Shown in pieces: positions 23,047-64,000 of a stretch of 64,000 nucleotides of DNA. The stretch's first letter is position 1. Each line of letters starts with the position of its first letter. Below the pieces are notes generated by a model. It worked only from the letters and a program-made list of their open reading frames with translations. It made no database searches and was not told the DNA's origin. The position numbers and the translations under genes were made by a program. The DNA comes from Aliidiomarina soli (lineage in GTDB: Bacteria; Pseudomonadota; Gammaproteobacteria; Enterobacterales; Alteromonadaceae): assembly GCF_003986975.1 (NCBI RefSeq), contig NZ_PIPO01000005.1, positions 62,001-126,000 on the forward strand, in the 5' to 3' direction.

Positions 23047-23047
23047 A

Positions 23048-45756: not shown

Positions 45757-45803
45757 GGGATATTCCGTTTAGTGTCGAATTTTCAACAGTTTGTTGGTCA
45801 TTT

Positions 45804-45843
45804 ATGACCCACTGATGACAGCTTTCTGTCGTAATTTTGACAT
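45804..45843. promoter_or_regulatory. Two back-to-back candidate Pho boxes
   Basis: Minus strand, 45821 to 45804: CTGTCAT-CAGT-GGGTCAT (first half perfect, second 5/7). Plus strand, 45826-45843: CTGTCGT-AATT-TTGACAT (6/7 and 5/7). Both have the 7+4+7 spacing of PhoB sites, each pointing toward the gene on its side, separated by 4 bp. The genes are a TonB receptor and a periplasmic 5'-nucleotidase, typical Pho-regulon functions. -10 elements are not clear. Confidence 0.6.
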
Positions 45844-45891
45844 CTTGATGTGCAATGGTGGCATGCACTGCAATGGATAAAAGGTGATGCT

Positions 45892-47712: not shown

Positions 47713-47791
47713 GCTCATCCAAACTTGGCGGTTTCTTTGTGGCGACTAAGATAGACTATTAACGCAGTCAGGCACTTCAAGGAGAACGCAA

Positions 47792-48826
47792 TTGTTGAAC
47801 CCGGAAAGCTGGACACTGTTGCAGGCTGTGATGGTGTTTCTATTCTGTGTGCTGGTAATTGGGATTGCCGGCACCCGGATCACGCGTGTGGTTGACCAAC
47901 TGGCTGACCGCACGGGTATTGGTGAAGCGGCTGCGGGAGCTGTGTTGCTTGGTGGTAGTACCTCGATTGGCGGCTCGGTATTGTCGGTGACGGCGGCCTG
48001 GAATGGGCATCCGGAACTGGCGGTCAGTAATGCCTTAGGTGGTATTGCGGTACAGACGTTCTTTCTGGCGGTGGCGGATATGATCTACCGGCGCGCCAAC
48101 CTTGAGCATGCGGCGGCGTCGGCGCCCAATATGATGCAAAACGGTCTGCTTATCCTGCTGCTGTCGGTGATATTGATGACGCCGTTACTGCCGGATGTCA
48201 CTATTTGGGGGATCCACCCGGTCACACCCTTGCTCTTTATTACCTATGTCTATGGTATTTACCTGGTGCAGGGGGCGCGTAACATGCCCATGTGGGCGCC
48301 GACCAAAACCAGGGAAACCCGTGAAGATACCCCGGATGACACCACCCGCATGCCGTCGCCAGCGCGTCTGTGGGGAGAATTTACAGTGTTACTGGTAGTG
48401 CTTGGTTTTGCCGGTTGGACACTGGAACCTTCGGCCACCGTTATCGCCGCACAAACCGGCTTAACTCAGACCATCGTCGGTGTCTTATTGACCGCGGTGA
48501 GCACCTCGATACCTGAGCTGGTCACTTCAATCGCGGCGGTACGGCGCGGCGCACTGACCCTGGCAGTTAGCGGTATCATCGGTGGCAACGCGTTCGATAC
48601 CTTGTTCACCGCGGCCTCGGATGTGGCCTACCTTGGTGGCTCGATTTATCACACCATGACTGATGCTACCTTGTTCTGGGTATGTCTTACTCTGGTCATG
48701 TCAGCGGTGCTGATGATGGGGCTGATTCGTCGTGAACGTTCCGGACCAGGCCGCATTGGCCTGGAGAGTGTGCTGATTCTGCTGCTCTACCTTGGTGGCG
48801 TCTGGTTGTTGCTAAGTCAGCTCTGA
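47792..48826 (+). CDS. CaCA-family sodium/calcium exchanger-like protein
   Basis: 344 aa with ~10-11 membrane helices. The two inverted ion-binding repeats are visible: GAAVLLGGSTSIGGSVLSVTAAW with SNALGGIAVQTFF in the first half, and LLTAVSTSIPELVTSIAAVRRGALTLAVSGIIGGNAFDTLF in the second. The first repeat is weaker: the usual G(N)SxxE Glu is replaced (TSIGGSVLS), while the second keeps SIPE. A hydrophilic loop lies at ~165-190. TTG start (47792, or 47795) with AAGGAG eight to ten bases upstream. Transported cation uncertain. Confidence 0.82.
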   Translation: MLNPESWTLLQAVMVFLFCVLVIGIAGTRITRVVDQLADRTGIGEAAAGAVLLGGSTSIGGSVLSVTAAWNGHPELAVSNALGGIAVQTFFLAVADMIYRRANLEHAAASAPNMMQNGLLILLLSVILMTPLLPDVTIWGIHPVTPLLFITYVYGIYLVQGARNMPMWAPTKTRETREDTPDDTTRMPSPARLWGEFTVLLVVLGFAGWTLEPSATVIAAQTGLTQTIVGVLLTAVSTSIPELVTSIAAVRRGALTLAVSGIIGGNAFDTLFTAASDVAYLGGSIYHTMTDATLFWVCLTLVMSAVLMMGLIRRERSGPGRIGLESVLILLLYLGGVWLLLSQL

Positions 48827-48840
48827 TTTGTATTGGTGTA

Positions 48841-48868
48841 TTGCTTTTGTTGCTCCAGGGGGTATAGT
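48841..48868 (+). promoter_or_regulatory. Candidate promoter of the metal-efflux operon
   Basis: TTGCTT (48841-48846) and TATAGT (48863-48868), 16 bp apart, 26 bp before the first start codon of the operon. The spacer is not lengthened as in MerR/CueR-type promoters. No metal-regulator gene is in the window. Confidence 0.45.
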
Positions 48869-48894
48869 GGCAAAACTACTCATAGGAGCTTTCG

Positions 48895-49311
48895 ATGCGT
48901 TTCTGGATCGTGCTAATGACAATATGTTCGCTGCTCAGTCTGCCTTTTTCAGGCAGTATGGCGGCTGATACTGTCCATCACAGCAACGACCACAGCAACG
49001 AAATGCACGCCATGTCTGAACACGATCAGCATGAGTCTGCGTCGGCAACCGAAGACGGCGAACATTGTCCTCAGAGCATGCCTGTCACTGAAGTCGCTGA
49101 TGACTGCTGTGACGATAACGCCAACGGACCTGAGTGTGGCAGTTGCCCGCCTGATTGTGGCCATTGCGCGATGTCTGATCACGGATCTTGCGCTGCCCTT
49201 ACGATGCAGCAAACCTTTGCCCAGTCGGTTATCAACTCGGCTGTAGTGAGTACCTCCTCGTTTTACCAACTCTTATCGGGGCAACCCACACCACCACCTA
49301 TTATTTCCTGA
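48895..49311 (+). CDS. Cys/His-rich periplasmic protein heading the Cu/Ag efflux operon
   Basis: 138 aa. Signal peptide ~1-24 (SLPFSGSMA/AD). The mature part begins with a His/Met-rich run (VHHSNDHSNEMHAMSEHDQH) and has eight Cys (ECPQ-type HCP, DDCCDD, PECGSCPPDCGHCAMSDHGSC), clearly a metal-binding sequence. It resembles the short secreted proteins placed before CusC/CzcC genes in marine proteobacteria, but I know no characterised homologue. A role as periplasmic Cu/Ag buffer or sensor is inferred. 70 bp upstream of the outer-membrane channel gene. Confidence 0.75.
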   Translation: MRFWIVLMTICSLLSLPFSGSMAADTVHHSNDHSNEMHAMSEHDQHESASATEDGEHCPQSMPVTEVADDCCDDNANGPECGSCPPDCGHCAMSDHGSCAALTMQQTFAQSVINSAVVSTSSFYQLLSGQPTPPPIIS

Positions 49312-49381
49312 TTCCGACATTTAGGTTCCGGTCGTTCGCCTAGTCGCGCGCCGGTTATGTTGAGAATGCAGGAGATATTGC

Positions 49382-50725
49382 ATGTCATTTTTTACCCGCA
49401 CAGCCCGTTTAACGGTGGCTGTTGCCACGCTTACCCTGGCAGCTTGCGCTAGTTATAGTCCCAATTATGAGGCGCTGGACCAACAGGTTCGCGCTGAATC
49501 TGCACCGCTTCCGGTGGATGCGGATATTGCTGAGCTTATCCGCTATGCCCAGCGCCACCACCCTGCGGTACTTGCCGCCGAGGCTCGTCTTGAACGCGCC
49601 CGTGCGGGTTCTGTCGCTGCTGGTGCGTTTGCTGACCCGCAGTTAAGTATCAGTCAGGGCCTGAATGACGCCGATTATCAAACCTTAGGGCTGTCCCAGG
49701 AAATTCCGGTGTTTGGGCGCCGCGGAATGAGCATTGAACAGGCCCGTACTGCTGAACGAGCTGCCCAGGCCCGCTTGGTCGAAGTCAAAGCCGACCTTGC
49801 TGCGAATGTGGTGCAGGCATTCAGTGAATATCTCTATGTGGGCGAAAATCAGCGATTGCAGGGCGATTTAGTTCAGTTGCTGGAGCAATTTACCGCAGTC
49901 GCTGAACGCAGCTACGCAGCTGGGTCGGTGAGTATGCCGGACTTACTGCGGGCGCAGAACGCGCTGGATGAAGCGCGTAGTGATTATCAGAACCTTGACG
50001 CTATGCTGTTTTCGCAACGTGCCCGCCTGAACTCGGCCCTTGGTCGTGATGCCCGCACTGAAATTGAGGGCGACTATTCACTTATCCAGTCACATCGTGA
50101 ATTTGCTCGCTTGCCAGCACCTGCGGATGAACTCTACGCCCTGCTAAAAGAACAGAATCCTGCCTTACTGGCCAGCCGCTTTGAAGTGGAAAGCATGCTG
50201 GTTGGGCAGGATTTAGCAGACAGCGCCGGATTACCAAGACTGATGGTGGGTGCCGAGTACATGAACACAGCCATGGCGTCAGACACCATCGTCGGTATGG
50301 TCTCGGTGTCGCTGCCCATCTGGCGCTCAAATTACCGCGCCCAGCGTGATGCCGCGAAAGCCGATGTAGAAACCGGTATACAGCAGCTGCGGGCGGCAGA
50401 GCTCGAGGTACAGGCTGAACTTAGTATGGCGCTTTATCAGTGGCGGGAAGCAGAGCGGAATCGTGAACTCTACGGTGACGTGCTGGTTGCCCGCTCTGAA
50501 CAGGCTGTCGCTACCACCTTAAGTAACTACCAGAACGGCAATGCCGGGTTTACCGATGTGATTACCAGTCAGCGTGAGTGGTTAAGCTTTGCGCTGGCGC
50601 ATCGTCGGGCGCTTGCCAATCAACTTGCCGCCGTTGCCACCATCCATGCACTTATCCCAGCAAGTCTTTCAGAGACTGCGCCTGCCGCTACGCAAGACAA
50701 CAAGGTTGAGGTTGACCATGAATAA
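49382..50725 (+). CDS. cusC: TolC-family outer-membrane lipoprotein channel (CusC/CzcC-like)
   Basis: 447 aa. Lipoprotein signal with lipobox LAAC (Cys ~22). Two OEP repeats of helical hairpins: AELIRYAQRHHPAVLAAEARLERARAG..., DPQLSISQGL, GLSQEIPVFGRRGMSIEQARTAERAAQARL, then EIPLW-type SVSLPIWRSNYRAQRDAAKADVETG. Outer-membrane exit duct of an RND heavy-metal pump. Its end overlaps the adaptor gene by 8 bp. Confidence 0.9.
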   Translation: MSFFTRTARLTVAVATLTLAACASYSPNYEALDQQVRAESAPLPVDADIAELIRYAQRHHPAVLAAEARLERARAGSVAAGAFADPQLSISQGLNDADYQTLGLSQEIPVFGRRGMSIEQARTAERAAQARLVEVKADLAANVVQAFSEYLYVGENQRLQGDLVQLLEQFTAVAERSYAAGSVSMPDLLRAQNALDEARSDYQNLDAMLFSQRARLNSALGRDARTEIEGDYSLIQSHREFARLPAPADELYALLKEQNPALLASRFEVESMLVGQDLADSAGLPRLMVGAEYMNTAMASDTIVGMVSVSLPIWRSNYRAQRDAAKADVETGIQQLRAAELEVQAELSMALYQWREAERNRELYGDVLVARSEQAVATTLSNYQNGNAGFTDVITSQREWLSFALAHRRALANQLAAVATIHALIPASLSETAPAATQDNKVEVDHE

Positions 50726-52547
50726 GAAAAATCCAGTGACGGTGATTGCCGTTATTTTTGTCGTGATTGTGCTTGGCGCGACGGCGCTTGGACTGTCCTT
50801 TCAGACTCCTCACCAGGACGACCATGACCACAGTCAGGAGACCGCGGCTAGTGAGTATTTACACCAGCATGGCGAGGATCAGGAACAGGAATATACCTGC
50901 TCCATGCACCCGAACTTTCGCTCAACCGATCCGAATGAGCGCTGCCCGATTTGCGGCATGGAGCTTATTCCCGTCACCACCAGTGCAGCGCGTGACGATG
51001 ACCTGACACGCATTGAGTTTACTGGCCGCAGCCTGGCACTGCTTGATCTTCAAACCTACGTGGTGCAACGGGGAAGCGCGAGTGCACAACTGCGGATGAT
51101 AGGCTCACTGGAATTTGATGAACGTTCGCTCACGGCTATTAGTGCCTGGACAGGCGGGCGGATCGAGAACCTGTATGTGAACTTTACCGGGGACTACGTT
51201 GAGGCTGGTGAGCCATTGGTTGAACTCTATAGTCCTGAATTGTACGTCGCCCAGCAGGAATTACTTCAGGCCTACAATCAGGCCCAACGCGACGCGCCTG
51301 GTTTCCTGGCCGACTCGAATCAAACCACCCTGCGCGCGTCACGCGAACGTTTACGTTTGCTCGGCCTTACCAGTACACAAATCGAGAAAATTATTGAAAG
51401 CGGTGAAGCCAGCGACCGGATCACCATTTATGCGCCAACAGCAGGGCTGGTGGTGACACGCAATGTGTCGCAGGGGGATTACGTAAACACCGGCGACACG
51501 GTGCTCGAACTAGCGGACGGGGATCAGCTGTGGGCGGTGTTCGAGTTGTTTGAACGTGACCTGCAGTATATTGAGGTGGGCCAGCAGCTTGAGTTTGACC
51601 TGCGCGCGTCCAATGAGCGGATCGAGGGGGTTGTCGAATCCCTGGGCCCACGTATCGATGCAGAGCGTCGCACCCGCGAAGTTCGGGTTGCTATTAGCGG
51701 CAGTGAGCATTCTCTGACCGCGGGGTCTTTTGTGCGCGCACTGGTGAATGTTGAAGTCGATGACGTGATGACAATTCCGGCCTCAGCGCCGCTGTTAACG
51801 GGTGACCGAGCCGTTGTCTATGTACGGGTGAGTGAAGACAGCAGTGAATTTGAAGCGCGCAATGTAGAAATAGGCCGCAAGCTTGGTGACAGTTATGAAG
51901 TGCTAAGCGGGCTTGCTGAAGGCGACCATGTGGTTAGCCGCGGAGCATTCCGCATCGACAGCGAACTGCAACTACGTGGACGCCCAAGCATGATGGCGCC
52001 GCAGGGTGGCGGAGCCGTGGGCCATGATCACGGCAATGGCGAGAGCGCTGGGTCAGAACAGCAAGTGACTCATGAGCAACATCAAGAATCAGCAGCACCA
52101 ACAGGCGAAAACCTGCAGTTAGGCGACCTGCCGCGACATTACTTCGCTATGTGGGACGCCTTGCATAACGATGATCTGGAAGCATGGCAGAGCGCCGCTA
52201 CAGACTTTTACCAGTTCGCTGATACAATTCGCTGGCCCCATAACATGCACGACCTGCATGCTGAATTAAGCACTGGCGCGGGCCATGCCCACCACGTCGA
52301 TAGTCTGGATCGGGCGCGCGAACTGTTTCAGCTCCACTCCCAGGCGATGATAGCCCTGGCGCGGGCTGATTACCTTGAAGTGAATGCTTACCTGATGTTC
52401 TGCCCGATGGCCTTTGACAACCAGGGCGCTTACTGGCTGCAGCCGGATAACCGTCTGCTGAACCCCTACTTTGGCGGCAGTATGTTGCGCTGCGGCGACC
52501 GCGTAGAAAGCTTTGAAGCGGGCCATGACAGCCACGGAGGTCACTAA
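50718..52547 (+). CDS. cusB: RND efflux adaptor (CusB-like) with heavy-metal-binding and DUF3347 modules
   Basis: 609 aa from ATG 50718, inside the cusC end. Signal-anchor helix ~7-27, His-rich stretch (QDDHDHSQ), then the small heavy-metal-binding motif with C61, H64, C76 and C79 (YTCSMHP, CPICGMEL). Membrane-fusion domains follow: SAWTGGRIENLYVNFTGDYVEAGEPL, hairpin ~190-250, beta-barrel IYAPTAGLVVTRNVSQGDYV. A His-rich linker (~430-470) leads to a C-terminal DUF3347 domain (~475-600) with FCPMAF, AYWLQPDNRLLNPYFGGSML, CGDRV. The DUF3347 fusion is longer than E. coli CusB (407 aa). Confidence 0.88.
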   Translation: MNKKNPVTVIAVIFVVIVLGATALGLSFQTPHQDDHDHSQETAASEYLHQHGEDQEQEYTCSMHPNFRSTDPNERCPICGMELIPVTTSAARDDDLTRIEFTGRSLALLDLQTYVVQRGSASAQLRMIGSLEFDERSLTAISAWTGGRIENLYVNFTGDYVEAGEPLVELYSPELYVAQQELLQAYNQAQRDAPGFLADSNQTTLRASRERLRLLGLTSTQIEKIIESGEASDRITIYAPTAGLVVTRNVSQGDYVNTGDTVLELADGDQLWAVFELFERDLQYIEVGQQLEFDLRASNERIEGVVESLGPRIDAERRTREVRVAISGSEHSLTAGSFVRALVNVEVDDVMTIPASAPLLTGDRAVVYVRVSEDSSEFEARNVEIGRKLGDSYEVLSGLAEGDHVVSRGAFRIDSELQLRGRPSMMAPQGGGAVGHDHGNGESAGSEQQVTHEQHQESAAPTGENLQLGDLPRHYFAMWDALHNDDLEAWQSAATDFYQFADTIRWPHNMHDLHAELSTGAGHAHHVDSLDRARELFQLHSQAMIALARADYLEVNAYLMFCPMAFDNQGAYWLQPDNRLLNPYFGGSMLRCGDRVESFEAGHDSHGGH

Positions 52548-52549
52548 TT

Positions 52550-55500
52550 ATGACCAACTGGCTATTACAAAATAAGTTGGTCGTTGGCTTACTGGCGGTG
52601 ATTGTTGTGGTCGCCGGTATTCTGGTCGCCCCCTTTAACTGGGACACCGGGATGCCGCGTTCACCGGTGGCCGTAGATGCCATTCCTAATATCGGCGAGA
52701 ACCAGCAGATCGTCTATACCGAGTGGCCAGGGCGCTCGCCGCAGGACGTCGATGACCAGATAAGCTACCCCTTGTCGGTGCAAATGATGGGGGTGCCCGG
52801 GGTTAAGGACGTGCGGACCTTGTCGATGTTTGGTTTTTCCAGCATTGCGGTCATTTTCAACGACGATGTGGAATTTTACTGGTCACGCTCGCGCCTGCTG
52901 GAGAAACTCAGCAGTTTGCCTCCCGGCACTTTGCCTGATGGTGTGCAACCGGCATTGGGGCCGGATGCGACAGGCCTCGGCCAGGTATATTTATATACCT
53001 TGGAAGGGCGCGACCCGCAGGGGAACCCGATTGGTGGCTGGGACTTAGACGAACTGCGTTCGGTGCAGGACTGGTATTTGCGCTATGCGCTGCTCGCTGC
53101 AGAAGGTATTTCTGAAGTCGCCTCGGTGGGCGGCTATGTCCGCGAATACCAGATTGATGTCGACCCCGACGCCCTGCGCTATTACGACGTGACCCTTGAA
53201 CAGGTAATGACCGCCGTTCAGCAATCGAATCTGGACATAGGCGCGCGTACCACCGAGATCAATCAGGTGGAATACATTGTGCGCGGGGTTGGTTTTATTG
53301 AGTCGCTGGAAGACATTGAACGTGCCGTGGTGCGTTTAGCCAGTGACAACTCGCCGATACTGGTATCCGATGTGACAACGGTTGGTTTTGGCCCGGCGGA
53401 GCGTCGCGGCGCTCTGGATGTTGCTGGTGCTGAAGCGGTTGGTGGCGTGGTCACCGTACGCGAAGGCTTTAACCCACTGGAAGCAATCGAAAATACCAAA
53501 GAACGCATCGCCGAAGTGGCGTCGAGTATGCCGGCGCGTGCAGTGATTGACTGGGACGCGGTGACTCCACAACAGGTCAGCGAGTTTGCAGCCAGTCAGC
53601 AGTTGCCGGATTACCAAACCGGAACGCTTAACTTTGATGATGAGAGTCAGAGTGCCTGGTCTGAATGGTTGCAGGCGCACCCGCAGGACAGCTGGCCTGA
53701 CTGGATAAACCTGAGTCAGATCAATGTGGTGCCGTTTTATGACCGCTCGACGCTGATCATGGAAACCTTAGGCACCCTGGATGACGCGCTGGCTCAGCAG
53801 CTATTGGTGACCACCGCCGTGGTCATGATCCTGCTGTTGCATCTGCGCTCGGCCATTACCGTCGCGACCATGCTGCCGCTGGCGGTATTGATGACCTTTA
53901 TTGGCATGCGGGTCCTTGGCGTTGAAGCCAATATTGTGGCGTTAGCGGGCATTGCGATTGCCATCGGTACCATTGTCGATATGGGGATTATTGTCGCCGA
54001 CAATATTTTAAGGCTGCGTAAACAGTTCCCGGATACCGAAATCGGCGCCATTATTCAGCGCGGTACGAAAGAAGTGGGGCCGGCAGTGCTGACCGCGATT
54101 GCGACCACAGTGATAAGCTTCCTGCCAGTTTTCACCATGACAGGCGCTGAAGGTAAACTCTTCACCCCTCTGGCCTACACCAAAACTTTAGTGCTGCTGT
54201 CCGCGGTGTTGCTGGCGCTGGTGGTGGTACCTGTGATGTTGCGGCTGTTACTCAGCGACCGTCTGCGTAAGCTCGATGCCTGGCTTGAGGCGCGGCGCAA
54301 GGCCTACCAGATTGCCTATGTGGTGCTTACTCTGGTGGTGCTGATTGTACTGGCTAATTTATGGGAGCCCTTAGGCCCTGCCGCCGGAACGGTGCGTAAC
54401 CTGCTCTTCGTGGTCATATTGTTTGCTGCTGTGGTAGGTAGTTTTGCGCTGATTATTCGCTTCTATGAACCCATGTTGCGCTGGTGCCTGCGCTTTAAAG
54501 CCGCATTTTTAGCGCTGCCGGTACTGGTGATTGTAGCGGGGCTTGCCACGGTTCCCGGTTTAGGGCGTGAGTTTATGCCGTCGCTTGATGAAGGGTCCTT
54601 TCTGCTGATGCCTACGACTATGCCACATGCATCAATTGGCGAAGCGCTGGATGTATTGAGCCAGCAGGACAAAGCGATAGCAGCGATCCCGGAAGTGGAC
54701 TCGGTGGTGGGAAAAATTGGCCGCGCGGAAACGGCGCTCGACCCGGCGCCAGTGTCGATGATCGAAACCATCATTAACTACAAAAGTGAGTTCCGTACTG
54801 ATGAAAATGGCCGTCGACTTAACTTCAGAACCGATGCGGACGACAATTTTGTTCGCGACGCTGACGGTGAGTTAATCGAAGATCGGCGCGGCAGACCATA
54901 CCGTCAATGGCGCGACCATATCCAAAGCCCAGCCGATATCTGGACTGAAATCACTGCGGCTGCGGAAGTGCCCGGGGTGACCTCAGCCCCGCGTCTGCAA
55001 CCGATCGAAACCCGCCAGCTGATGTTACAAACCGGCATGCGGGCGTCGATGGGGGTCAAAGTCCAGGCTCCGGATTTGGAAACCCTGGAGCAGGCGGCTA
55101 TCGATATTGAACGGGTGCTACGCGGTTCTGATGGAGTCAATGCAGCTTCAGTCAGTGCTGAGCGTGTGGTCGGCAAGCCCTATTTGGAAATCAATCTGTT
55201 GCGCGACCAGATAGCCCGTTATGGGCTCAGTGTTGAGACGGTGCAAAACACCATTGCTGCCGCACTGGGCGGGGTTGAAGTAACTCGCAGCATTGAAGGA
55301 CGTGAACGCTATCCGATTCGCGTGCGCTATCAGCGTGAGCGGCGTGACGATATTGAGGCGATGTACGAGAGCCTGATCACGGCCGCTAACGGGGCTCAGA
55401 TACCCTTGTCTGAGGTGGCTGAAATTACCTACACTCGTGGCCCTCAGATGATCCGGTCAGAAAATACCTTCCTCACTGCTTATGTCACCTTTGGTTCCGT

Positions 55501-56242
55501 TGCAGGCTACGCGGAAGTTGAGGCGGTCGAAGCGGCCAGCGAACATCTGCGTTTAGCCCAACAGCGCGGAGAGCTCAGGCTGCCATCAGGGGTAAGCTAT
55601 AGCTTCGCCGGAAGTTATCAGCAGCAGCAAAGTGCAATGCAAACATTGCAGTTAGTGATCCCATTGTCGCTGATCCTGATTTTTATTCTGTTGTATCTGC
55701 AATTTAAAGAGGTCAGTACCGCGTTGATGGTGTTCAGTGGTATCGCAGTCGCCTGGGGCGGCGGTTTTATCATGCTTTACCTCTATGCTCAGTCATGGTT
55801 CGCAAACTTTAGTATTCCATTGATTACTCAGGGTGTCCCAGTGCGCGAGATCTTCCAGTTCGAAGTCACCAACCTCAGTGTCGCTGTGTGGGTTGGTTTC
55901 CTTGCGCTGTTTGGGATTGCAGTCGACGACGGTGTGGTGATGGCGACGTACCTGAAGCAGCGTTTCAGTGAAGGCGTCAGTGACACGGTCGAGAGCGTGC
56001 GTAACCGCACTGTAGAGGCCGGGTTGCAGCGGGTACGCCCCTGCCTGATGACCAGCGCGACTACCATTCTGGCGCTCTTTCCGGTACTTACAGCGACCGG
56101 GCGGGGTGCAGATTTAATGATCCCAATGGCCATCCCTACGGTCGGCGGCCTGACCTTTGTCGTGCTGTCGATGTTTGTGGTGCCAGTGCTGTATAGCTGG
56201 CGCGAAGAATTGAAACTTAAATTTAATCGTAAAGGAGTTTGA
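52550..56242 (+). CDS. cusA: HME-RND heavy-metal efflux pump (CusA-type), enlarged
   Basis: 1230 aa, versus 1047 for E. coli CusA. HME-RND marks: [43 protein letters not shown], the TM4 proton-relay segment [58 protein letters not shown] and a C-terminal [14 protein letters not shown]. Extra parts: ~45 residues before TM2 ([11 protein letters not shown]...), ~80 residues with two more hydrophobic segments between the usual TM6 and TM7 ([37 protein letters not shown]), and a ~50-residue periplasmic insert ([18 protein letters not shown]). Likely exports Cu(I)/Ag(I) by proton exchange. Confidence 0.9.
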   Translation: [1230 protein letters not shown]

Positions 56243-56243
56243 A

Positions 56244-56603
56244 ATGTTGAAATTTAACCAGGTAATCACCGCCGTAGCAGTCACGTTTTTTGTCAATGGT
56301 GCCGCGCTCGCTCAGCAGGAACATGCGCACCACCAGCACGGCAACGCCCATAGCGAGGAGCATGCTGAGATAGCATTTGTTCGTGCCGAGGTGGTGGAAG
56401 TGGATTTAGAGCACAATGAGCTGGTTCTGCGCCATGAGGCGATTGAACATCTGAATATGGCAGCCATGACGATGGCCTTTAGTGCCGCTGATGGTGTCGA
56501 TATCTCTCATTTGAGTGAAGGCGATGACATCAAGGTCAAGGTAGAGCGTCAGGACAGGGACTTCGTGATCATCGAAATGGAAGCAAACCAACATACTCAT
56601 TGA
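56244..56603 (+). CDS. cusF: CusF-like periplasmic copper-binding protein
   Basis: 119 aa, signal peptide ~1-23 (FVNGAALA). A His-rich leader (EHAHHQHGNAHSEEHAE) precedes the small CusF beta-barrel with LRHEAIEHLNMAAMTMAFSA: the two Met of MTM plus the upstream His form the Cu(I)/Ag(I) site; the stacking Trp of E. coli CusF is not at the usual place. Starts 1 base after the cusA stop, so it is cotranscribed. Would hand Cu(I) to the pump. Confidence 0.88.
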   Translation: MLKFNQVITAVAVTFFVNGAALAQQEHAHHQHGNAHSEEHAEIAFVRAEVVEVDLEHNELVLRHEAIEHLNMAAMTMAFSAADGVDISHLSEGDDIKVKVERQDRDFVIIEMEANQHTH

Positions 56604-56921
56604 ACATTCTTTAAACTGTTTTAACTGATCTTTACATATTTTTATGCATTAAAAGAATATATAAATTCATGTACAACTCATTGGGCTGGAGGAAATACGA
56701 CCAGTTGAAGCCGACAAGGCTAGTACGAAAGTGTAATGTAGTTGGCTATACAACTACGGTGTTCATGGTCGATTCTGAAACTTTAGTAGTTGTATAGAAA
56801 CCTTTAAAAACGGGCTTTGTAAAGGATAAGTGGAATTCTTCGAAGTTGCATATACATCTTTATAACTGTTATGAATAGTGTGTTAGATAAACTAAATGTG
56901 CAATAAGCGGGGAAAACGACG
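56604..56921. other. 318-bp intergenic region with inverted repeats, upstream of TonB receptor
   Basis: No gene supported. CTATACAACTAC (56746-56757) is repeated inverted as GTAGTTGTATAG (56786-56797), 12 of 12 bp, 28 bp apart; a further GTAGTTG at 56738-56744 makes a second dyad with the left copy. These could be operators or a leader structure for the receptor gene. No terminator after cusF and no Fur-like site was seen. Confidence 0.45.
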
Positions 56922-59624
56922 ATGAATAAAATTTCAAAAATAGCCTTAGCAGTCAGTCTCGGCTTGTTACCAGCCCAGCAGCTAGTAGCTCAGGACGACA
57001 ACCAGCCTGCAGCGGCGGAGCAAAGCTACGAACGCATTACAGTAACAGGCTCACGTGTGTTACGGGCCGAGGCAGAAAGTGCAGCCCCAGTTCAGGTCTT
57101 TACAGCCGAAGATATTGAAGCGACCGGCCTGACCTCGATGGAGATGGTGTTGCAACGTATGTCAGCCTCGGCTGGCTATGGCGGAAACCAGACTAGCGCC
57201 TACTGGAACGGTGGTGGCTGGGGTACTACGCAGGTTAACTTACGTGGCCTTGGCGCCAACCGCACACTGGTGCTGTTAAATGGCCGCCGGGTAGTCAATG
57301 GTGGTACAGGTGCGAACAGCTCAGTTGATTTAAATACCATTCCGCTGACCATGGTTGAGCGCATCGAAGTACTAAAAGATGGCGCCTCGGCAATTTATGG
57401 CGCGGATGCAGTTGCTGGCGTAGTCAACGTGATTACCCGCAAAAGTTACGATGGTTTTATGGTTGAAGGCCGGGTTGCGGGTACTGAACACGGCGACGGA
57501 GGCGAGCGTCAGGTTAATATGATGTTCGGTGCAAGCTCAGATCGTGGCCGGATTGTAACCACAGCCAGTTACCGTAGCACCGACGCAGTTAATATGGCTG
57601 ACCGTGCTCCCTGCGCCCTTGCAGAAACGGTCCCGGGCGAACTGAATTGTGTTGGCAGCGCCTCCACACCCGGTGGCCGCGCGGTGCTCACCAGTGGTCC
57701 GAATCAGGGCGATATGATTAATTTCAATCAACCCGGTGCTGAAGACCCTAATGGCTATTCACCTTATGATCCTAACCTGCACAATGTGAATTCATTCCCT
57801 TCACTGAACGCAGTAAACCCGGTAACGACCTTAAGCTTTTCCAGCTTTGGCGACTACCGTCTGGGTCAGGACACCATAGCGTTCGCAGAGCTGCTATATA
57901 ATAACCGCCGCTCTAGCCAGATTGGCGCACCGGGTACGTTACGTAATATTGATTATGCAGCGGATCATCCTGATAACCCGGTGGGCGAGGATATCCGTGT
58001 GGTTCAGCGTCGACTGGAGGAAGCAGGCCCGCGTGGTTTTGAACAGGACATCAGTACGTTCCGCGTAGTCACCGGCTTTAACGGTCTGTGGAACAATAAT
58101 TGGGCCTGGGAAGTGGCGTACAACTATGGCCGCACCAGTGGTTCAGATGCTTCTACCAACATCGTCAATCTGGAACGTATGGAGCGGACTATTAACCCTG
58201 AAACCTGCGGCAGCGACGGCGTACCCTGCGCCAATCTATTGGGCTACGGTAATGTCAGCCAGGATGCACTCGACTACATGCTGTTTCGTATCAGTGGTGA
58301 CGGTGGTAACGAGCAACGCTCGGTCACAGCCAACATCGCGGGCGACCTGTTTTCAACCTCCCGTGGTGTTATTCCTGTCGCATTTGGTATCGAAAGCCGT
58401 ACTGAGCGTGGCTGGAGTGAGCCTGATTCATCAGTGGTGGCGGGTATTATGAACACCAACCGTCGTGAGCCTTTACGCGGTCAGTATCAGGTAAACGAAG
58501 CCTATGTGGAAACTTCAGTTCCATTGCTCGATGGACATCGTTTTGCCGATTATATGGCGCTGGATTTCGCCTATCGCTATTCCGATTACGACACCTTTGG
58601 CAGTGACGGAAACTATAAAGTCGGTCTGCACTGGAACGTGAATCAGGATCTGAAACTACGGGCTACTCAGTCTACGGCGTTCCGGGTGCCAAATATCCCT
58701 GAGCTCTTTGGTGGTATCGGTGAAGGTAACCTGACCACTACCGATCCATGCTCTGGCTGGGATCAACCCGGCGCGGATGCGACAGTGGCTGCTAACTGTC
58801 AGGCCGATGGTGTACCCGCAGGCTACACCCAGCTTGGTTCAAGCGTACTGACTCAAACCGGTGGTAACCCAGCATTGCAGCCTGAAGATGCGAATACCTT
58901 TACCGCGGGTATGGTGTGGGACGTGCAGTATGTTGAAGGGCTCCAGGTCACCCTGGATTACTTCGATATTGAAATCGAAAACGCAATCCGTGGGGTGGCA
59001 GGCTCGACCAAACTGGCTGCCTGTTATAACTCGGAAAACCTGTCTCACCCGTTTTGTAATGACGACAGCTTTTCTCGTGACGAGTTGACTGGTGCAGTCG
59101 AATTCCTCTCCGCGCAACCGGCCAATGTAGCAACTGAAAATGTTTCGGGTATTGATGCGTCAGTTTATTATCGTACCCAGCTAGCTGGTCTTGATGCGTC
59201 CTTTAATCTGAATATGACCTATCTCAATGAGTATACGGTAGAGCCTTTTGCTGGCGCTCAACCGATAGAGTACGCAGGGCATATTACCGGTGGTAGCGGC
59301 AGTTACGCCCGTCTGCGCTCGGATGCGGCGGTCACTCTTGGTACTGATACCTGGCAGGCCAACTATAACATCCGCATGATCGGCTCGGCAGATGATATTA
59401 ACGCATCACCGGGCGACATCGGAGCCGAGGCACCTGCTGTGTTCTACCACGATTTGCAGGGCGTTTATTTCATGACTGATAACTGGAGCCTGACGGTTGG
59501 CGCAAACAACCTGTTTGATAAGAAGGCGCCTTATATACAGAGCTGGACGGATGCCAATACAGACACCATGACCTATGACCTGATGGGTCGGAAGCTGTAC
59601 GCAAAAGTACGTTACGAGTTTTAA
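56922..59624 (+). CDS. TonB-dependent receptor of the PepSY-reductase locus
   Basis: 900 aa. Signal peptide ~1-23 (QQLVAQ/DD). TonB-box-like ERITVTGSRV at ~37-46. Plug motifs VNLRGLGANRTLVLLNGRRVVNG and ERIEVLKDGASAIYGADAVAGVVNVITR; barrel ends KLYAKVRYEF. Same receptor class as the protein at 20021-22600, but with low overall similarity. A terminator lies after it, with the PepSY gene starting 63 bp downstream, so the downstream genes may be expressed by read-through. The pairing with PepSY proteins suggests an iron or other metal chelate as substrate. Confidence 0.9.
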   Translation: MNKISKIALAVSLGLLPAQQLVAQDDNQPAAAEQSYERITVTGSRVLRAEAESAAPVQVFTAEDIEATGLTSMEMVLQRMSASAGYGGNQTSAYWNGGGWGTTQVNLRGLGANRTLVLLNGRRVVNGGTGANSSVDLNTIPLTMVERIEVLKDGASAIYGADAVAGVVNVITRKSYDGFMVEGRVAGTEHGDGGERQVNMMFGASSDRGRIVTTASYRSTDAVNMADRAPCALAETVPGELNCVGSASTPGGRAVLTSGPNQGDMINFNQPGAEDPNGYSPYDPNLHNVNSFPSLNAVNPVTTLSFSSFGDYRLGQDTIAFAELLYNNRRSSQIGAPGTLRNIDYAADHPDNPVGEDIRVVQRRLEEAGPRGFEQDISTFRVVTGFNGLWNNNWAWEVAYNYGRTSGSDASTNIVNLERMERTINPETCGSDGVPCANLLGYGNVSQDALDYMLFRISGDGGNEQRSVTANIAGDLFSTSRGVIPVAFGIESRTERGWSEPDSSVVAGIMNTNRREPLRGQYQVNEAYVETSVPLLDGHRFADYMALDFAYRYSDYDTFGSDGNYKVGLHWNVNQDLKLRATQSTAFRVPNIPELFGGIGEGNLTTTDPCSGWDQPGADATVAANCQADGVPAGYTQLGSSVLTQTGGNPALQPEDANTFTAGMVWDVQYVEGLQVTLDYFDIEIENAIRGVAGSTKLAACYNSENLSHPFCNDDSFSRDELTGAVEFLSAQPANVATENVSGIDASVYYRTQLAGLDASFNLNMTYLNEYTVEPFAGAQPIEYAGHITGGSGSYARLRSDAAVTLGTDTWQANYNIRMIGSADDINASPGDIGAEAPAVFYHDLQGVYFMTDNWSLTVGANNLFDKKAPYIQSWTDANTDTMTYDLMGRKLYAKVRYEF

Positions 59625-59630
59625 CCTGTA

Positions 59631-59676
59631 CGGGCGGCCGTTTCCCTTTATGGCAACGCGGTCGCCCGGTTTTTTT
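59631..59676 (+). terminator. Intrinsic terminator between receptor and PepSY genes
   Basis: CGGGCGGCCG (59631-59640) pairs with CGGTCGCCCG (59659-59668, one G-U pair) and is followed by G and a T-run. The loop is 18 nt. It may attenuate expression of the inner-membrane genes relative to the receptor. Confidence 0.8.
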
Positions 59677-59687
59677 GAGGTAAGTCT

Positions 59688-60404
59688 ATGCAATATCAAT
59701 CCTCTGCGTTTCGTACCTGGCATCGCTGGTTAGGCATTATTGTCGGTGTGCAAATGGTTGTCTGGGCGATCTCGGGCGCTTATATGGTGATTGTTCAGTT
59801 ACCTTTTATTCACGGCGAGCATCTGACTCAGGAAGCAAATGGTGAAATCCGTGATTCGTCACTGGTTGAACGTTTGCCAGCAGTGCTTGAGAACTATCCG
59901 CAGGTTAATCAGATCCACCTGGTAAATCGACTGGTGCAGGGCGACGACCAGGATCTGGCACAAGTACATTCCGAGAGTGAAAAGTTCTTAGTCAATTTAC
60001 ACACCTTAGCACCGGTTGAACTTTCCGAAGCCGATATCAAAGGCCTGGCCGCCGCCTATTACGCCAAAGGCGAACCCACTATCAGTGGTGTGGAGTACAT
60101 TGAAGAGGCGCCACCGACTGAGTTGAGCGAACGTTACTTGCCGATTTGGCGGGTTAATTTTGATGATTTTGGCAACACAAGTTTATACCTGCATCCGCAG
60201 ACCGGTGAGATGACAGTAAGGCGTCACGACTTCTGGCGTGGGTTCGACATCATGTGGATGTTCCATATTATGGATTACGACGAACGCGTCGACATTACCA
60301 CTTGGTGGTTACGCGCCTTTATTTTTGCCACCTTTGCCTTCTTGTTTACCGGCACTGTGCTACTGCTACAGACCCTATGGGCGTCGCGGAGGAAACCAGC
60401 ATGA
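59688..60404 (+). CDS. PepSY-domain inner-membrane protein
   Basis: 238 aa. N-terminal helix (~13-33) with the HRWLGIIVGVQMVVWAISGAYM signature of PepSY_TM proteins, a periplasmic PepSY-like domain (~40-200, with LPIWRVNFDDFGNTSLYLHPQTGEMTVRR) and a C-terminal helix (~213-233). SD GAGGT lies 7 nt before the ATG. Its last 4 bp overlap the ATG of the next gene. PepSY_TM proteins beside TonB receptors are often involved in siderophore-iron reduction; the next gene supports this. Confidence 0.85.
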   Translation: MQYQSSAFRTWHRWLGIIVGVQMVVWAISGAYMVIVQLPFIHGEHLTQEANGEIRDSSLVERLPAVLENYPQVNQIHLVNRLVQGDDQDLAQVHSESEKFLVNLHTLAPVELSEADIKGLAAAYYAKGEPTISGVEYIEEAPPTELSERYLPIWRVNFDDFGNTSLYLHPQTGEMTVRRHDFWRGFDIMWMFHIMDYDERVDITTWWLRAFIFATFAFLFTGTVLLLQTLWASRRKPA

Positions 60405-62182
60405 AGTTCTTACAATGGTTACACCGCTGGACCGGTTTAATTTTACTCATTCAGCTCATGCTGTGGACGATTAGCGGTCTGTATTTTGCGCTGGTCGATC
60501 ACCACGGCATGAAAGGGCATCAGTACTTTAGTATGCAACAACCCGAAGCATTGAACCGGGCGCAACTGGCCAATCTCTCACCGGCCTGGTGGGATGAATT
60601 TAACGGCGTGACTAAAGTGCATAGCTACACTACTCAGGGCTTGCCGCGGGTGGAAGTGCATCATCAGGATGGCATTACCCACCTGGATGGACGTGACGGC
60701 AGTGTGTGGCAAACCGATCAGAATTTTGCGCAGCAAATTGCGCAGGCAAGTTATTCCGGCCCCGGTAGTCTGGCCCGGGTTACGCCAATTGAGCGTACCC
60801 GAGAGCTACATGACTGGAGAGGGCAAGGTTATCGGATCGATTTTGATGATGATCTGAACACCCGGGTATATGTTGACAGAGCATCGGGCACGGTTATCGA
60901 CCATAGAAATACTCCCTGGGTGGTTGCTGACTGGATGTTCCGACTTCATTTTATCGATTATACCGGTGGTCGGAATTTTAATAACATGGTGGCAATTGCC
61001 GCTGCGGTGATGACTCTGTGGTTTGCGCTGTCAGGTTTTATCCTGCTGATCAAACTACTGAATAGCGGCGAAATGCGCTTCACTCTGCGCAAAGCATCAC
61101 TAACGGCCGATGTCGGCGAGCGCCAATTCAAATTCAGCGACAAAGCGCACAAAACCGTACTGCAGGTTTTGCAACACAATGATATTGCAGTAGAAAGTGG
61201 CTGTGGCGGCGGTGGAACCTGTGGTTTCTGCGCGGTAAAAGCGGCGCCGGATACACCGGTTACGGTTAGTGACCGTGCTCAGTTGTCTGCAACCCAGTTA
61301 GAGCAAGGCTATCGCCTGGCCTGCCAGCACAGCATTGAAATGCTGCACAAGGTTGAGGTGCCGGAAACGGACGCCCGCAAGTATTCATTGCAGCTGAAAG
61401 AATCGCGTTTCATTACCCCTATGCTCAGAGAGCTGCGTTTTGAAGTGGCTGACGGACCAGTGGAATACGCGGCAGGTCAGTATATGCAGTTCCTGATCCC
61501 GGCAGGTGCCGGGCAAAGCCGACCCGCCGATATCCCGGAAGACTACGTCATTGAATGGCATGCTATTGAAGCCTGCGACTTTAAGCATGACGCTGTACGA
61601 CGCAGTTACTCGATGGCTACTGCAGCAGGCGGCACAGAACTGGTCTTTACCGTGCGTTATCAGCCACAGGCCCCAGGGGCACTTGCGCCAGGTGTGGGTT
61701 CGTCATACCTGTGTAACTTAAAGCCCGGCGAAACCATTATTGCAGAAGGCCCGTTTGGTGACTTTCAGCGGCTTGCCGGGGCTGATCGTAAGCTTTGCTT
61801 TATCGGTGGTGGCGCTGGTATGGCACCGTTGCGGGCGCTTATCCAGGAAGAGCTAAGAAGCCATCAACCAAGGCCAATGCAGTTTTTCTATGGCGCGCGG
61901 AATCGTGGTGAAGTGCTCTACATTGATGAGTTTGTTGAACTCGACAACGCGGATAAACTGCGCTTTGTGCCGGTTCTGTCAGAGCCCCGCGAAACCTGTC
62001 AGTGGGGTGATGCCGAGGGGTTTGTGCATGAAACAGCCGAAGCCTGGCTGCGTCAGCAGGACATCAGTGAGTACGACTTCTACATTTGTGGTCCGCCACG
62101 TATGCTCGCTGCAGCCTTGTCGATGCTGAAAGAACTGAAGGTAGATCCATCGCGTGTTCGCTATGACGATTTTGGGAACTAG
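60401..62182 (+). CDS. PepSY membrane domain fused to a 2Fe-2S/FAD/NAD(P)H reductase (NqrF-like)
   Basis: 593 aa from ATG 60401 (ATGA overlap with the previous stop). Residues 1-225 repeat the PepSY_TM plan: HRWTGLILLIQLMLWTISGLYF (TM ~11-31), periplasmic part, TM ~196-219. Then a plant-type ferredoxin domain with C268, C274, C277 and C308 (C-x5-C-x2-C-x30-C), a FAD-binding domain with RRSYSMA (~400-406), and an NAD(P)-binding domain with FIGGGAGMAPLR (~467-478) and YICGPPRM near the C-terminus. The C-terminal half resembles NqrF. It can pass electrons from NADH to the membrane or periplasm. A ferric-reductase role is inferred. Confidence 0.88.
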   Translation: MKFLQWLHRWTGLILLIQLMLWTISGLYFALVDHHGMKGHQYFSMQQPEALNRAQLANLSPAWWDEFNGVTKVHSYTTQGLPRVEVHHQDGITHLDGRDGSVWQTDQNFAQQIAQASYSGPGSLARVTPIERTRELHDWRGQGYRIDFDDDLNTRVYVDRASGTVIDHRNTPWVVADWMFRLHFIDYTGGRNFNNMVAIAAAVMTLWFALSGFILLIKLLNSGEMRFTLRKASLTADVGERQFKFSDKAHKTVLQVLQHNDIAVESGCGGGGTCGFCAVKAAPDTPVTVSDRAQLSATQLEQGYRLACQHSIEMLHKVEVPETDARKYSLQLKESRFITPMLRELRFEVADGPVEYAAGQYMQFLIPAGAGQSRPADIPEDYVIEWHAIEACDFKHDAVRRSYSMATAAGGTELVFTVRYQPQAPGALAPGVGSSYLCNLKPGETIIAEGPFGDFQRLAGADRKLCFIGGGAGMAPLRALIQEELRSHQPRPMQFFYGARNRGEVLYIDEFVELDNADKLRFVPVLSEPRETCQWGDAEGFVHETAEAWLRQQDISEYDFYICGPPRMLAAALSMLKELKVDPSRVRYDDFGN

Positions 62183-62221
62183 CTAATCATAGGACTATCC
62201 TGCTGAGTCGGAGGAAGCATT

Positions 62222-62270
62222 GCCCACTTGTTCATAAATTGACCTTTCCATTTGTGAATCGGTGGGCTTT
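62222..62270 (+). terminator. Probable terminator after the reductase gene
   Basis: GCCCAC (62222-62227) and GTGGGC (62262-62267) enclose further partial pairing (TTCATAAAT with ATTTGTGAA), followed by only TTT. Weak T-run, so function is uncertain. Confidence 0.5.
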
Positions 62271-62306
62271 AATCATTAACAATATTAGTTGATGGCGGAA
62301 CTCGAT

Positions 62307-63350
62307 ATGAAAACTTCTTACTCATCAGTCGCACTTGCGTGTGCACTATTTATGGGCGTTCAGCCCGCATCCGACGCTTGCACCCGAGCTGTTTATCAGG
62401 GGCCTCAAGGGCTAACTATTACAGCCCGTTCAATGGATTGGAAAGACGACATTCCCGCCAATCTATGGGTGTTTCCAAGAGGGATGGAACGTCACGGCGC
62501 AGTGGGGGATAACTCACTACAGTGGACTTCCACCTATGCCAGCGTGGTCACCAGCTCTTTTGACATCGCCAGTACCGATGGAATGAATGAAAAAGGCCTG
62601 GTTGCCAATCTGCTGTGGTTAGCAGAGTCCGAATACCCTGATTACGATAGCTCGCAAATAGGTCTGTCCGTTGCTGCCTGGGTGCAGTATGTGCTGGATA
62701 ATTTTGCCAGCGTCAGTGAAGCAGTTGAGGCACTGCAGGATGAGCCGTTTGTCGTCGTATCGTCGGACATTCCTGGTACAGAGCGTTTTACTACGGTGCA
62801 TTTATCGATTTCTGATGCTGAAGGTGACAGCGCTATATTTGAGTATATCGATGGTCGGCTGGTGACCCATCACAGCGCAGACTATCAGGTGATGACCAAC
62901 TCCCCTGTGTTTGATCAGCAGATCGCGCTGAATCAGTACTGGCGGCAAATCGGTGGCACCACTATGTTACCGGGTACAAATCGTGCTGCTGACCGGTTTG
63001 TGCGTGCGTCTTTCTATATCGACGCGATTCCACAAACCTCTGACCCCCATATCGCAGTGGGAAGTGTCTTCAGTGTAATTCGCAATGCTTCAGTGCCATA
63101 TGGTATTTCCTCAGAAGAAGAGCCTAATATCTCATCTACCCGTTGGCGGACGGTGGCTGACCAAAAGCACCTGAAGTATTACTTTGAAACCGCATTAACC
63201 CCCAATACCTTCTGGGTCGACCTGAATCAGTTCGATGTCAGTGAAGGGGCAGAGGTGAAATGGCTTCGGGTTGACGACAACCAGATCTATTCTGGTGAAA
63301 CATCAGCGCATTTTGAGTCTACTACAGCATTCGAATTCGCTGGTTTGTAA
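62307..63350 (+). CDS. Choloylglycine hydrolase/penicillin V acylase-family amidase
   Basis: 347 aa from ATG 62307 (GGCGGA upstream). Signal peptide ends at ASDA, leaving Cys25 as residue 1 of the mature protein: CTRAVY is the N-terminal-nucleophile start of this family. Other marks: ITARSMDWKDD (conserved Arg and Asp near residues 40-43), TDGMNEKGLVANLLWL and MTNSPVFDQQIALNQYW (conserved Asn). It should cleave a linear amide: bile salts, penicillin V, N-acyl homoserine lactones or fatty N-acyl amino acids are known substrates in the family. Which one is open. Follows the reductase gene by 124 bp. Confidence 0.9.
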   Translation: MKTSYSSVALACALFMGVQPASDACTRAVYQGPQGLTITARSMDWKDDIPANLWVFPRGMERHGAVGDNSLQWTSTYASVVTSSFDIASTDGMNEKGLVANLLWLAESEYPDYDSSQIGLSVAAWVQYVLDNFASVSEAVEALQDEPFVVVSSDIPGTERFTTVHLSISDAEGDSAIFEYIDGRLVTHHSADYQVMTNSPVFDQQIALNQYWRQIGGTTMLPGTNRAADRFVRASFYIDAIPQTSDPHIAVGSVFSVIRNASVPYGISSEEEPNISSTRWRTVADQKHLKYYFETALTPNTFWVDLNQFDVSEGAEVKWLRVDDNQIYSGETSAHFESTTAFEFAGL

Positions 63351-63370
63351 ACTGTATTGACTGCCTGCTG

Positions 63371-63379
63371 TGCTATGAT
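63371..63379 (+). promoter_or_regulatory. Extended -10 promoter for yaeQ
   Basis: TGCTATGAT is an extended -10 element 33 bp before the yaeQ ATG. No good -35 at the normal distance (ACTGTA). Confidence 0.5.
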
Positions 63380-63412
63380 GCGGCCATTATTTAGCACAGT
63401 AGAGAGTACGTC

Positions 63413-63952
63413 ATGGCGTTGCAGGCAACCCCTTATAAAGTCAGTCTGGATATTTCAGATATGGATCGCGGCGTCTACGAGACGGTTAAAGTGACCGTCG
63501 CACGCCATCCGTCAGAGACTGAACTGAGGCTGGTTGCGCGGATTATTGCGTACGCCATTTTTTATCACGAGCACCTGGCTTTCGGCCGAGGCCTGTCGGA
63601 CACCGACGAGGCGGCGTTATGGCAGCTAAGCCTGGACGGCCAGATTGAACACTGGATCGATGTCGGTCAGCCTGATGCCGACCGCATCACCAAGTCGAGC
63701 CGTCGCGCGCCACAGATGTCAGTGCTTGCTTATGGTAATACCCGTATCTGGGCTGAAAAACTGCTACCTAAAGTGAATGACCTCAAGCAGGTCCGTATTC
63801 TCGCACTCCCGGAGCCTGAGCACGCTGAACTCGCCTCGCAGATTGGCAGAAATATCCACTGGGGCGTGATGGTCACTGACGGGGTACTCTATGTCAGCGA
63901 TGGTGACAGCCAGGTTGAACTTACACTGCAGGAGCTGAAAGCCGCGCAGTAG
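63413..63952 (+). CDS. yaeQ: YaeQ family protein
   Basis: 179 aa (E. coli YaeQ 181). Starts MALQATPYKVSLDISDMDRGVYETVKVTVARHPSETELRLVARIIAYA and has the PD-(D/E)xK-like core features of the family: AFGRGLSDTDEAALWQLSLDGQIEHWIDVGQPD, KSSRRAPQMSVLAYG. Cellular function is not established. SD is poor (AGAGAG). Confidence 0.95.
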   Translation: MALQATPYKVSLDISDMDRGVYETVKVTVARHPSETELRLVARIIAYAIFYHEHLAFGRGLSDTDEAALWQLSLDGQIEHWIDVGQPDADRITKSSRRAPQMSVLAYGNTRIWAEKLLPKVNDLKQVRILALPEPEHAELASQIGRNIHWGVMVTDGVLYVSDGDSQVELTLQELKAAQ

Positions 63953-63971
63953 TCTAGCTTACCGGGTTAAT

Positions 63972-63987
63972 CGCCGCGATCGCGGCG
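63972..63987. repeat. 16-bp perfect GC palindrome after yaeQ
   Basis: CGCCGCGATCGCGGCG stands 20 bp after the yaeQ stop. No T-run follows, so it is not a classic terminator. Its meaning is unclear; the sequence after it reaches the window end without a recognisable gene. Confidence 0.5.
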
Positions 63988-64000
63988 TGCGTAGCCGCTA

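Follow-up and report, generated by a model that had tools for sequence, protein, structure and literature searches.

Among the closest described counterparts of the locus reported here is CrtA with CrpH of Bordetella pertussis, in which a TonB receptor likewise adjoins a PepSY_TM protein and the link is to copper (PMC12914433, PMC13038864). Our locus lies in 64,000 nucleotides of the Aliidiomarina soli genome (NZ_PIPO01000005.1, positions 62,001 to 126,000, forward strand), and "the window" refers to this whole stretch. It encodes a TonB-dependent receptor, a PepSY protein (PepSY1), and a fusion of a second PepSY module (PepSY2) to a ferredoxin-FAD-NAD(P)H reductase. The PepSY pair may be an NADH-driven periplasmic Cu(II) reductase that makes Cu(I) for CusF and CusCBA, with a HutC-controlled receptor for a chelate of the copper-histidine type. 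We judge this reading of the sequence to have an even chance of being right.

Closest described systems

CrpH has one essential periplasmic histidine in each half, and its gene is co-operonic with that of the TonB copper importer (PMC13038864). For the receptors of both systems, histidine is proposed as a copper filter (PMC12914433, PMC13038864). A single CrpH chain holds the histidines of both halves, whereas the window has two chains, one of which is fused to an NADH reductase. Also, CrpH is tied to copper starvation and to oxidases, whereas the window trio is accompanied by efflux and detoxification genes and by operators of the HutC type.

FoxB, HiuB, FsrB, and FpvG are likewise PepSY_TM proteins with a histidine pair at each membrane face, and FoxB and HiuB occur beside TonB receptors. 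In contrast to the window pair, they act on iron and carry at least four transmembrane (TM) helices in one chain, and HiuABC is under Fur. To our knowledge, none of these four proteins has a fused NADH path. Like the window's fusion, PepSY-like proteins of flavinylation clusters join a PepSY membrane module to an NAD-binding domain; 1077 of them have been counted and were read as iron systems, and copper is not mentioned in the available text on these proteins (PMC8238504).

The ferredoxin-FAD-NADH module of the fusion is shared with NqrF of Na+-NQR. NqrF has a single N-terminal helix and the partners NqrA-E, whereas the fusion has a PepSY domain between two helices. CcoG is also a bacterial Cu(II) reductase, but it uses a pair of tetranuclear Fe-S clusters and is associated with the assembly of cbb3 oxidase (PMC7558416). 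A HutC-regulated TonB receptor of Caulobacterales and Sphingomonadales is possibly of the same family as the window's receptor; however, it is predicted for histidine uptake, and the available text states no link to copper or PepSY (PMC5343134).

PepSY-NAD fusions have thus been counted before, CrtA/CrpH combines a TonB copper importer with a PepSY_TM protein, and a HutC-regulated receptor has been predicted for histidine. Among the top matches listed from the open-licence literature, the available parts contain no text tying the pair to Cus or Cop clusters, or the receptor to copper and HutC together, and we therefore regard the system as a variant of the FoxB/CrpH-type reductases. The main texts on two copper islands do not mention PepSY.

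Organization of the locus

The initial annotation placed the receptor, the PepSY protein, and the fusion in this order at 56922-62182, with the last two genes overlapping, and this arrangement stands. The PepSY1 stop overlaps the ATG of the fusion at 60401 (ATGA). Directly upstream is cusC-cusB-cusA-cusF (49382-56603), on the same strand as the trio, so that the trio is contiguous with a copper-resistance cluster. The gap from cusF to the receptor is 318 bp, and that from the receptor to PepSY1 is 63 bp. The features are as follows.

49382..50725 (+): CusC/TolC-type outer-membrane factor; TolC and NodT families, scores below cut-off
50718..52547 (+): CusB-type periplasmic adaptor; RND_mfp above cut-off, CusB model below; start assumed at the first ATG
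52550..56242 (+): CusA/CzcA-family heavy-metal resistance-nodulation-division (RND) pump; TIGR00914, 745 bits against a cut-off of 701
56244..56603 (+): CusF-type periplasmic copper chaperone; CusF_Ec, 66.9 bits against a cut-off of 27
56742..56753 (+): HutC-like site TTGGCTATACAA, by motif comparison
56790..56801 (+): HutC-like half site TTGTATAGAAAC, by motif comparison
56846..56857 (+): HutC-like site TTGCATATACAT, one mismatch to TGTA-N2-TACA, by motif comparison
56922..59624 (+): TonB-dependent receptor, 900 amino acids (aa); Pfam Plug and TonB barrel above gathering cut-offs
59631..59676 (+): strong hairpin followed by a T run, possible partial terminator or attenuator; -27 kcal/mol, z -3.0
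59688..60404 (+): PepSY1, 238 aa, PepSY_TM half-protein with two TM helices, by Pfam
60401..62182 (+): PepSY2-ferredoxin-FAD-NAD(P)H reductase fusion, 593 aa, by Pfam and structure model
62222..62272 (+): hairpin with a U-rich tail, probable terminator of the pair, ends approximate; 116-nucleotide stretch folded, z -3.8

The hairpin between the receptor and PepSY1 is followed by GUUUUUUU, and its loop is too long for the general hairpin scan. Neither this hairpin nor the cus genes were pointed out in the initial annotation. Because these elements precede PepSY1, the receptor may be produced in excess of the reductase.

Directly before cusC, a gene at 48895-49311 (+) encodes a 138-aa protein that looks secreted and is rich in His, Cys, and Asp, a candidate periplasmic copper binder; it has no match in Pfam or NCBIfam. 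On the 3' side of the terminator-like hairpin, a gene for a linear amide C-N hydrolase of the choloylglycine hydrolase family (62307-63350, +) is probably outside the module.

The PepSY pair and its reductase

Both PepSY1 and the fusion match PepSY_TM (PF03929), with 41.2 and 31.6 bits against a gathering cut-off of 28.8, and the fusion also matches Fer2, FAD_binding_6, and NAD_binding_1 above the Pfam gathering cut-offs. Across 20 aligned fusions, the window's included, there is no variation at C268, C274, C277, C308, R401-Y403-S404, or CGP (563-565), or at five of the eight residues of the GGGAGMAP motif. These matches and residues bear out the PepSY, 2Fe-2S, FAD, and NAD(P)H domains that the initial annotation had assigned. 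Its description of the electron path as NqrF type holds for structure: the predicted structure (mean predicted local distance difference test score, pLDDT, of 86) matches Vibrio NqrF with Z 38.5 over 393 residues (root-mean-square deviation 9.2). However, the fusion scores 222 bits with the NqrF model TIGR01941, under the curated cut-off of 295.

In the fusion model, the PepSY domain is flanked by two long helices. The matches listed in the structure searches were filled by NqrF-like reductase domains, and a search of the PDB with a PepSY1 profile found no chain. Elsewhere in the genome are a separate NqrF-like gene (C1:8643) and a full-length PepSY_TM protein (C9) that aligns only weakly with either PepSY half.

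The two PepSY proteins begin with the same HRW(L/T)G sequence, as noticed earlier, and the likeness extends from end to end: PepSY1 aligns with the N-terminal 225 residues of the fusion at 23% identity (hhalign probability 100, E 2.4e-62). By this alignment, PepSY1 and the N-terminal part of the fusion are full-length paralogues. Each has one histidine in the first helix and one just ahead of the second. H12, H42, and H193 of PepSY1 are kept in all 53 loci with the pair, and H8 and H183 of the fusion in all 20 aligned fusions. H12/H193 and H8/H183 are probably heme ligands, and the two hemes would be located between the two subunits. H180 of PepSY1 is found in 37 of 40 loci with copper genes versus 6 of 13 without, counts in which related loci are not independent.

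In 7 of 48 loci (L047, L049, L050, L052, L053, L054, and L063), a single open frame of 825-856 codons encodes both PepSY1 and the fusion, with all four histidines retained. These single chains support the earlier suggestion that the PepSY proteins work as a pair. The pair probably constitutes a single two-chain enzyme, which would fit a split diheme PepSY_TM reductase. Neither protein has the four TM helices per chain of the FoxB type, a number reached only by the pair together or by the single-chain relatives. Two histidines per membrane face are present, with the faces assigned from the inferred topology. A model of the L063 single chain, made from an alignment of fusion rows only, had a pLDDT of 27-59 over residues 1-60, and no geometry was drawn from it.

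Copper genes around the pair

Relatives of the fusion were gathered from plasmids, from draws of genomes by order, class, and phylum, and from named genomes; the draws partly coincide, and the window's own genome is among them. Relatives occurred in 24 of 295 genomes in the order draw at E 1e-60, 3 of 369 in the class draw, and 11 of 398 in the phylum draw, one of the last without the PepSY part. The scan of contigs from named genomes kept the best 80 loci among the matches listed. The ten copper markers and the hut markers were taken from the window and five plasmid loci. Eight loci (the window and L028-L034) are, as marker sources, circular or near copies, and dropping them leaves 45. Within these 45, L085 and L086 are close to L033, and L042/L045, L040/L044/L066, and others are mutually close.

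At least one copper marker is found in 40 of 53 pair loci, and at least two in 35. Without the eight source or near-copy loci, the counts are 32 and 27 of 45. No copper marker occurs in 35 random stretches, drawn from 17 pair-bearing genomes and not from plasmids or named genomes, or in 60 reductase-only loci, which were defined by a match from residue 135 or later and no PepSY1 match, come mostly from other phyla, and include 14 under 10 kb. The absence of a marker refers only to the stretch that was retrieved, which spans 10-32 kb (10 kb for L047 and L181).

The order DUF411-TolC-CusB-CusA-PepSY1-fusion-CopC-CopD is recurrent, and plasmids carry the module among copper-resistance genes. These neighborhoods make the copper link of the pair well supported. 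One such plasmid, from Salinimonas (L033), also has a second gene for a 2Fe-2S protein at 22404-24341, near a cytochrome c3-family gene and about 8 kb from the pair.

The initial annotation proposed that the pair reduces a metal chelate in the periplasm or at the inner membrane. The reductive system and the link to a metal are supported; by the 40 of 53 loci, the acceptor metal is most likely copper, not iron. Ferric-siderophore uptake with periplasmic iron reduction like that of FoxB or HiuB is quite improbable in this setting. The PepSY_TM reductases that the available text names besides CrpH act on iron (PMC13038864), and one plasmid record links a related receptor to siderophore transport in its annotation. 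However, the genes that surround the pair are copper genes (iron genes were not among the markers sought), the sites upstream of the receptor are HutC-like, and no Fur box above chance was found there in a check whose positive control did not work. The best match to a Fur consensus was 11/19, with 457 of 500 shuffles as good; the intended control, the window's other TonB receptor, gave 9/19, with 500 of 500 shuffles as good. The copper survey makes iron-siderophore uptake a rival reading only, to which the Fur check, its control having failed, adds little.

That other TonB receptor (43414-45756, -) has TonB-siderophore as its best NCBIfam match, at 181 bits and below cut-off. An adjoining gene (42226-43365) has a weak match to enterochelin esterase, and the two are a possible siderophore pair.

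A reading closer to CrtA/CrpH is copper acquisition, in which chelated Cu(II) is scavenged by the receptor and then reduced by the pair to supply the assembly of cytochrome oxidase, and the efflux genes are separate members of the locus. A TonB copper importer and a PepSY_TM protein are paired in the same way in B. pertussis (PMC12914433, PMC13038864), and CopC-CopD, a possible import pair, lies 3' of the fusion in many loci. However, the neighbors of the pair are mostly efflux and detoxification genes (CusCBA, CusF, CopA, CopB, and P1B ATPase), which fit copper excess rather than starvation, and the CrpH operon is copper-repressed and is not described with Cus genes in the available text (PMC13038864). 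Copper acquisition is unlikely.

Finally, it is conceivable, but highly improbable, that the periplasmic substrate of the pair under copper stress is not a metal but, for example, oxidized methionine or the thiols of Cus proteins. Escherichia coli MsrPQ repairs oxidized periplasmic proteins under copper stress, with a focus on CusF (PMC9302797). In contrast, the PepSY_TM enzymes described in the available text are metal reductases (PMC13038864), and no partner methionine-sulfoxide or disulfide reductase is known at this locus, where none was sought.

The TonB receptor

The receptor is present in 22 of 53 pair stretches, a count that includes L032, an unrelated receptor matching itself (25% identical), and L029, a near copy of L028; L035 was scored as receptor-free, with a receptor just beyond the stretch (L222). 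The initial annotation made TonB-driven import part of the system. The receptor is a frequent partner, but many close homologues of the fusion lie without one, which goes partly against that proposal and suggests that TonB import is an add-on, with copper genes the commoner partner. When 49 fusions are placed on a tree, those linked to a receptor occupy at least three regions: the window with Idiomarinaceae; Colwelliaceae; and Alphaproteobacteria and Betaproteobacteria with Xanthomonadaceae and Microbulbifer.

With the receptor as sole query (E 1e-170), matches were found in 10 of 398 genomes and in 13 of 295, which together make 17 genomes in addition to the window's. PepSY genes are near the receptor in 8 of the 17, and these eight stretches have copper genes in seven cases and hutC in six. 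Identity to the window's receptor is 45-53% for these eight and 36-45% for the remaining nine. No PepSY, hut, or copper marker lies near any of the nine, except for a 23%-identical RND pump in L224; one of these stretches spans just 9.8 kb. L219 and L220 both have a receptor gene followed by PepSY1, a short PepSY2 that lacks the reductase, and hutC, and copA-copB adjoin.

Eight cysteines are invariant in 34 aligned receptors, both copper-linked and other, and likely form the disulfides 231/243, 429/436, 610/626, and 701/712. H709 is in the C701-C712 loop. It is present in 84%, and H287 in 96%, of 25 copper- or PepSY-linked receptors, versus 0% and 33%, respectively, of the nine others.

In the annotated Xanthomonas citri loci L028 and L029, genes for an extracytoplasmic function (ECF) sigma factor, FecR, or DUF4198-like proteins lie near the trio, and L063 is similar, judged from sequence only. 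Two downstream genes of L063 have no NCBIfam match.

HutC-like sites and hut genes

HutC of Pseudomonas binds TGTA-N2-TACA (PMC12977541). In three Idiomarinaceae orthologues, sites occur at nearly the same positions as those upstream of the window's receptor, within the best conserved blocks of an otherwise diverged gap. A perfect TGTA-N2-TACA is present in L218, L219, L220, and L068, and the L218 copy overlaps the assumed start. Within 300 bp upstream, a distance fixed beforehand, a score of at least 10/12 is reached for 12 of 25 receptors versus 14 of 346 other open reading frames (ORFs; Mann-Whitney p 5.7e-6). Within 700 bp, chosen after distant sites appeared in L160, the post hoc counts are 18 of 25 versus 18 of 341. 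The p values of both comparisons treat related loci as independent, and the control ORFs include hut genes where present; the 25 receptor loci leave out L029, L032, and the low-identity L223-L231.

The pair has hutH or hutU beside it in 8 of 53 loci (4 of 45 without the marker sources) versus 0 of 35 and 0 of 60 controls. Nine HutC proteins were tested and all score above the TIGR02018 cut-off; six of them are near the receptor in stretches without a hutH or hutU match. In the organism's own hut locus, TTGTATATACAA is located upstream of hutC-hutU-hutH, between these genes and a divergent gene that is probably hutI by position, and it is the sole exact copy in the genome. These sites and gene neighbors suggest that the receptor may be under HutC-type control.

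Perhaps the receptor takes up histidine, free or in peptides, and only chance has placed a copper enzyme, the PepSY pair, at the same locus. A receptor of this kind is predicted in HutC regulons, with no mention of copper in the available text (Leyn et al. 2016, PMC5343134), and pair and receptor are found apart in many genomes. However, this explanation is improbable given that the two lie side by side in at least three separate tree regions and that the eight more similar receptors go with PepSY genes, whereas the nine less similar ones lack PepSY and hut markers.

The 12-mer GTAGTTGTATAG overlaps the site at 56742-56753 (reverse strand) and is repeated at 56786-56797, with no other exact copy in the genome. 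This palindrome was considered as a receptor-specific operator and was dropped, because the HutC comparison explains it better; one near match (L137) is inside another gene. In three Xanthomonadaceae-like loci (L028, L060, and L161), two HutC-like sites (10/12) with a spacing of about 80 bp are found around the start of a copL-like gene, which stands between the divergent hutC and the receptor. This placement suggests that copper-responsive and histidine-responsive control may meet at the copL-like gene.

A possible mechanism

The mechanism proposed here builds on what can be read from the DNA: gene order, domains, invariant residues, copper context, linkage to hutC and hut genes, and operator-like sites. 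It is conjecture that heme is bound and copper reduced, and so are the identity of the ligand and the sequence of the steps. The receptor would import Cu(II) bound to histidine or to a histidine-like chelate. PepSY1 and PepSY2 would form one membrane enzyme, a split form of the four-helix diheme PepSY_TM reductases, with H12 and H8 pairing on a heme at the cytoplasmic face and H193 and H183 at the periplasmic face. Electrons could then pass from NADH to FAD and the 2Fe-2S cluster on the cytoplasmic side, and through the two hemes to the periplasmic acceptor. Cu(II) would be reduced to Cu(I) in the periplasm, with release of the ligand. CusF and CusCBA handle Cu(I), and they would remove it. 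The freed histidine or other ligand might induce and feed the Hut pathway.

Histidine is known to buffer metals: in Acinetobacter, HutH releases zinc from the histidine pool, and Brucella histidine auxotrophs are copper-sensitive, as described in the available text (PMC13001215). Tentatively, and with distinctly less confidence than we give the cupric reductase with its HutC-controlled receptor, the whole could be a nutrient system that dismantles a chelate, in which Cu(II)-histidine import is controlled by HutC and urocanate, the NADH reductase strips off Cu(I), Cus expels it, and Hut consumes the histidine.

Several observations weigh against the proposed cupric reductase with its HutC-controlled receptor. 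Copper import next to an efflux pump is counter-intuitive, and CrpH of B. pertussis could work independently of its receptor (PMC13038864). The PepSY2 of three receptor loci lacks a reductase domain (L219, 244 aa; L220, 263 aa; L221, 244 aa). Because the ferredoxin, FAD, and NAD part is missing there, NADH is not a universal donor, and another electron source is possible.

Of the 53 pair loci, 13 have no copper marker within the stretch. They include L055 and L056, from close Pseudidiomarina relatives and both with a receptor, and the mostly single-chain loci L047, L049, L050, L052-L054, and L181. Only L055, L056, and L063 among the thirteen have a receptor; most of the others are single-chain or on short contigs, and L049 has a P-type ATPase upstream.

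The regulatory evidence also has weak points. All three sites in the window's receptor promoter are imperfect, each with at least one mismatch to TGTA-N2-TACA, and no hut marker was found in the window at 44001-64000. Xanthomonadaceae-like loci have their site 530-680 bp away from the receptor, either at the 5' end of the copL-like gene or farther out; such distant sites were found in six of seven of these loci. L031, L062, L063, L064, L065, L072, and L221 have no site of at least 10/12 even within 700 bp. The HutC motif is also promiscuous, with 172 candidate sites described in Pseudomonas aeruginosa.

Implications

The copper available in oxygenated surroundings is Cu(II), according to the available text (PMC12914433). 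A mobile reductase within Cus operons is a candidate for the missing step from Cu(II) to Cu(I). The link to HutC and hut genes predicts a ligand class for an orphan TonB receptor. If the chelate-dismantling reading is correct, copper resistance would be tied to amino-acid catabolism, with the pair as a dedicated cupric reductase of the periplasm, driven by NADH and coupled to Cus efflux.

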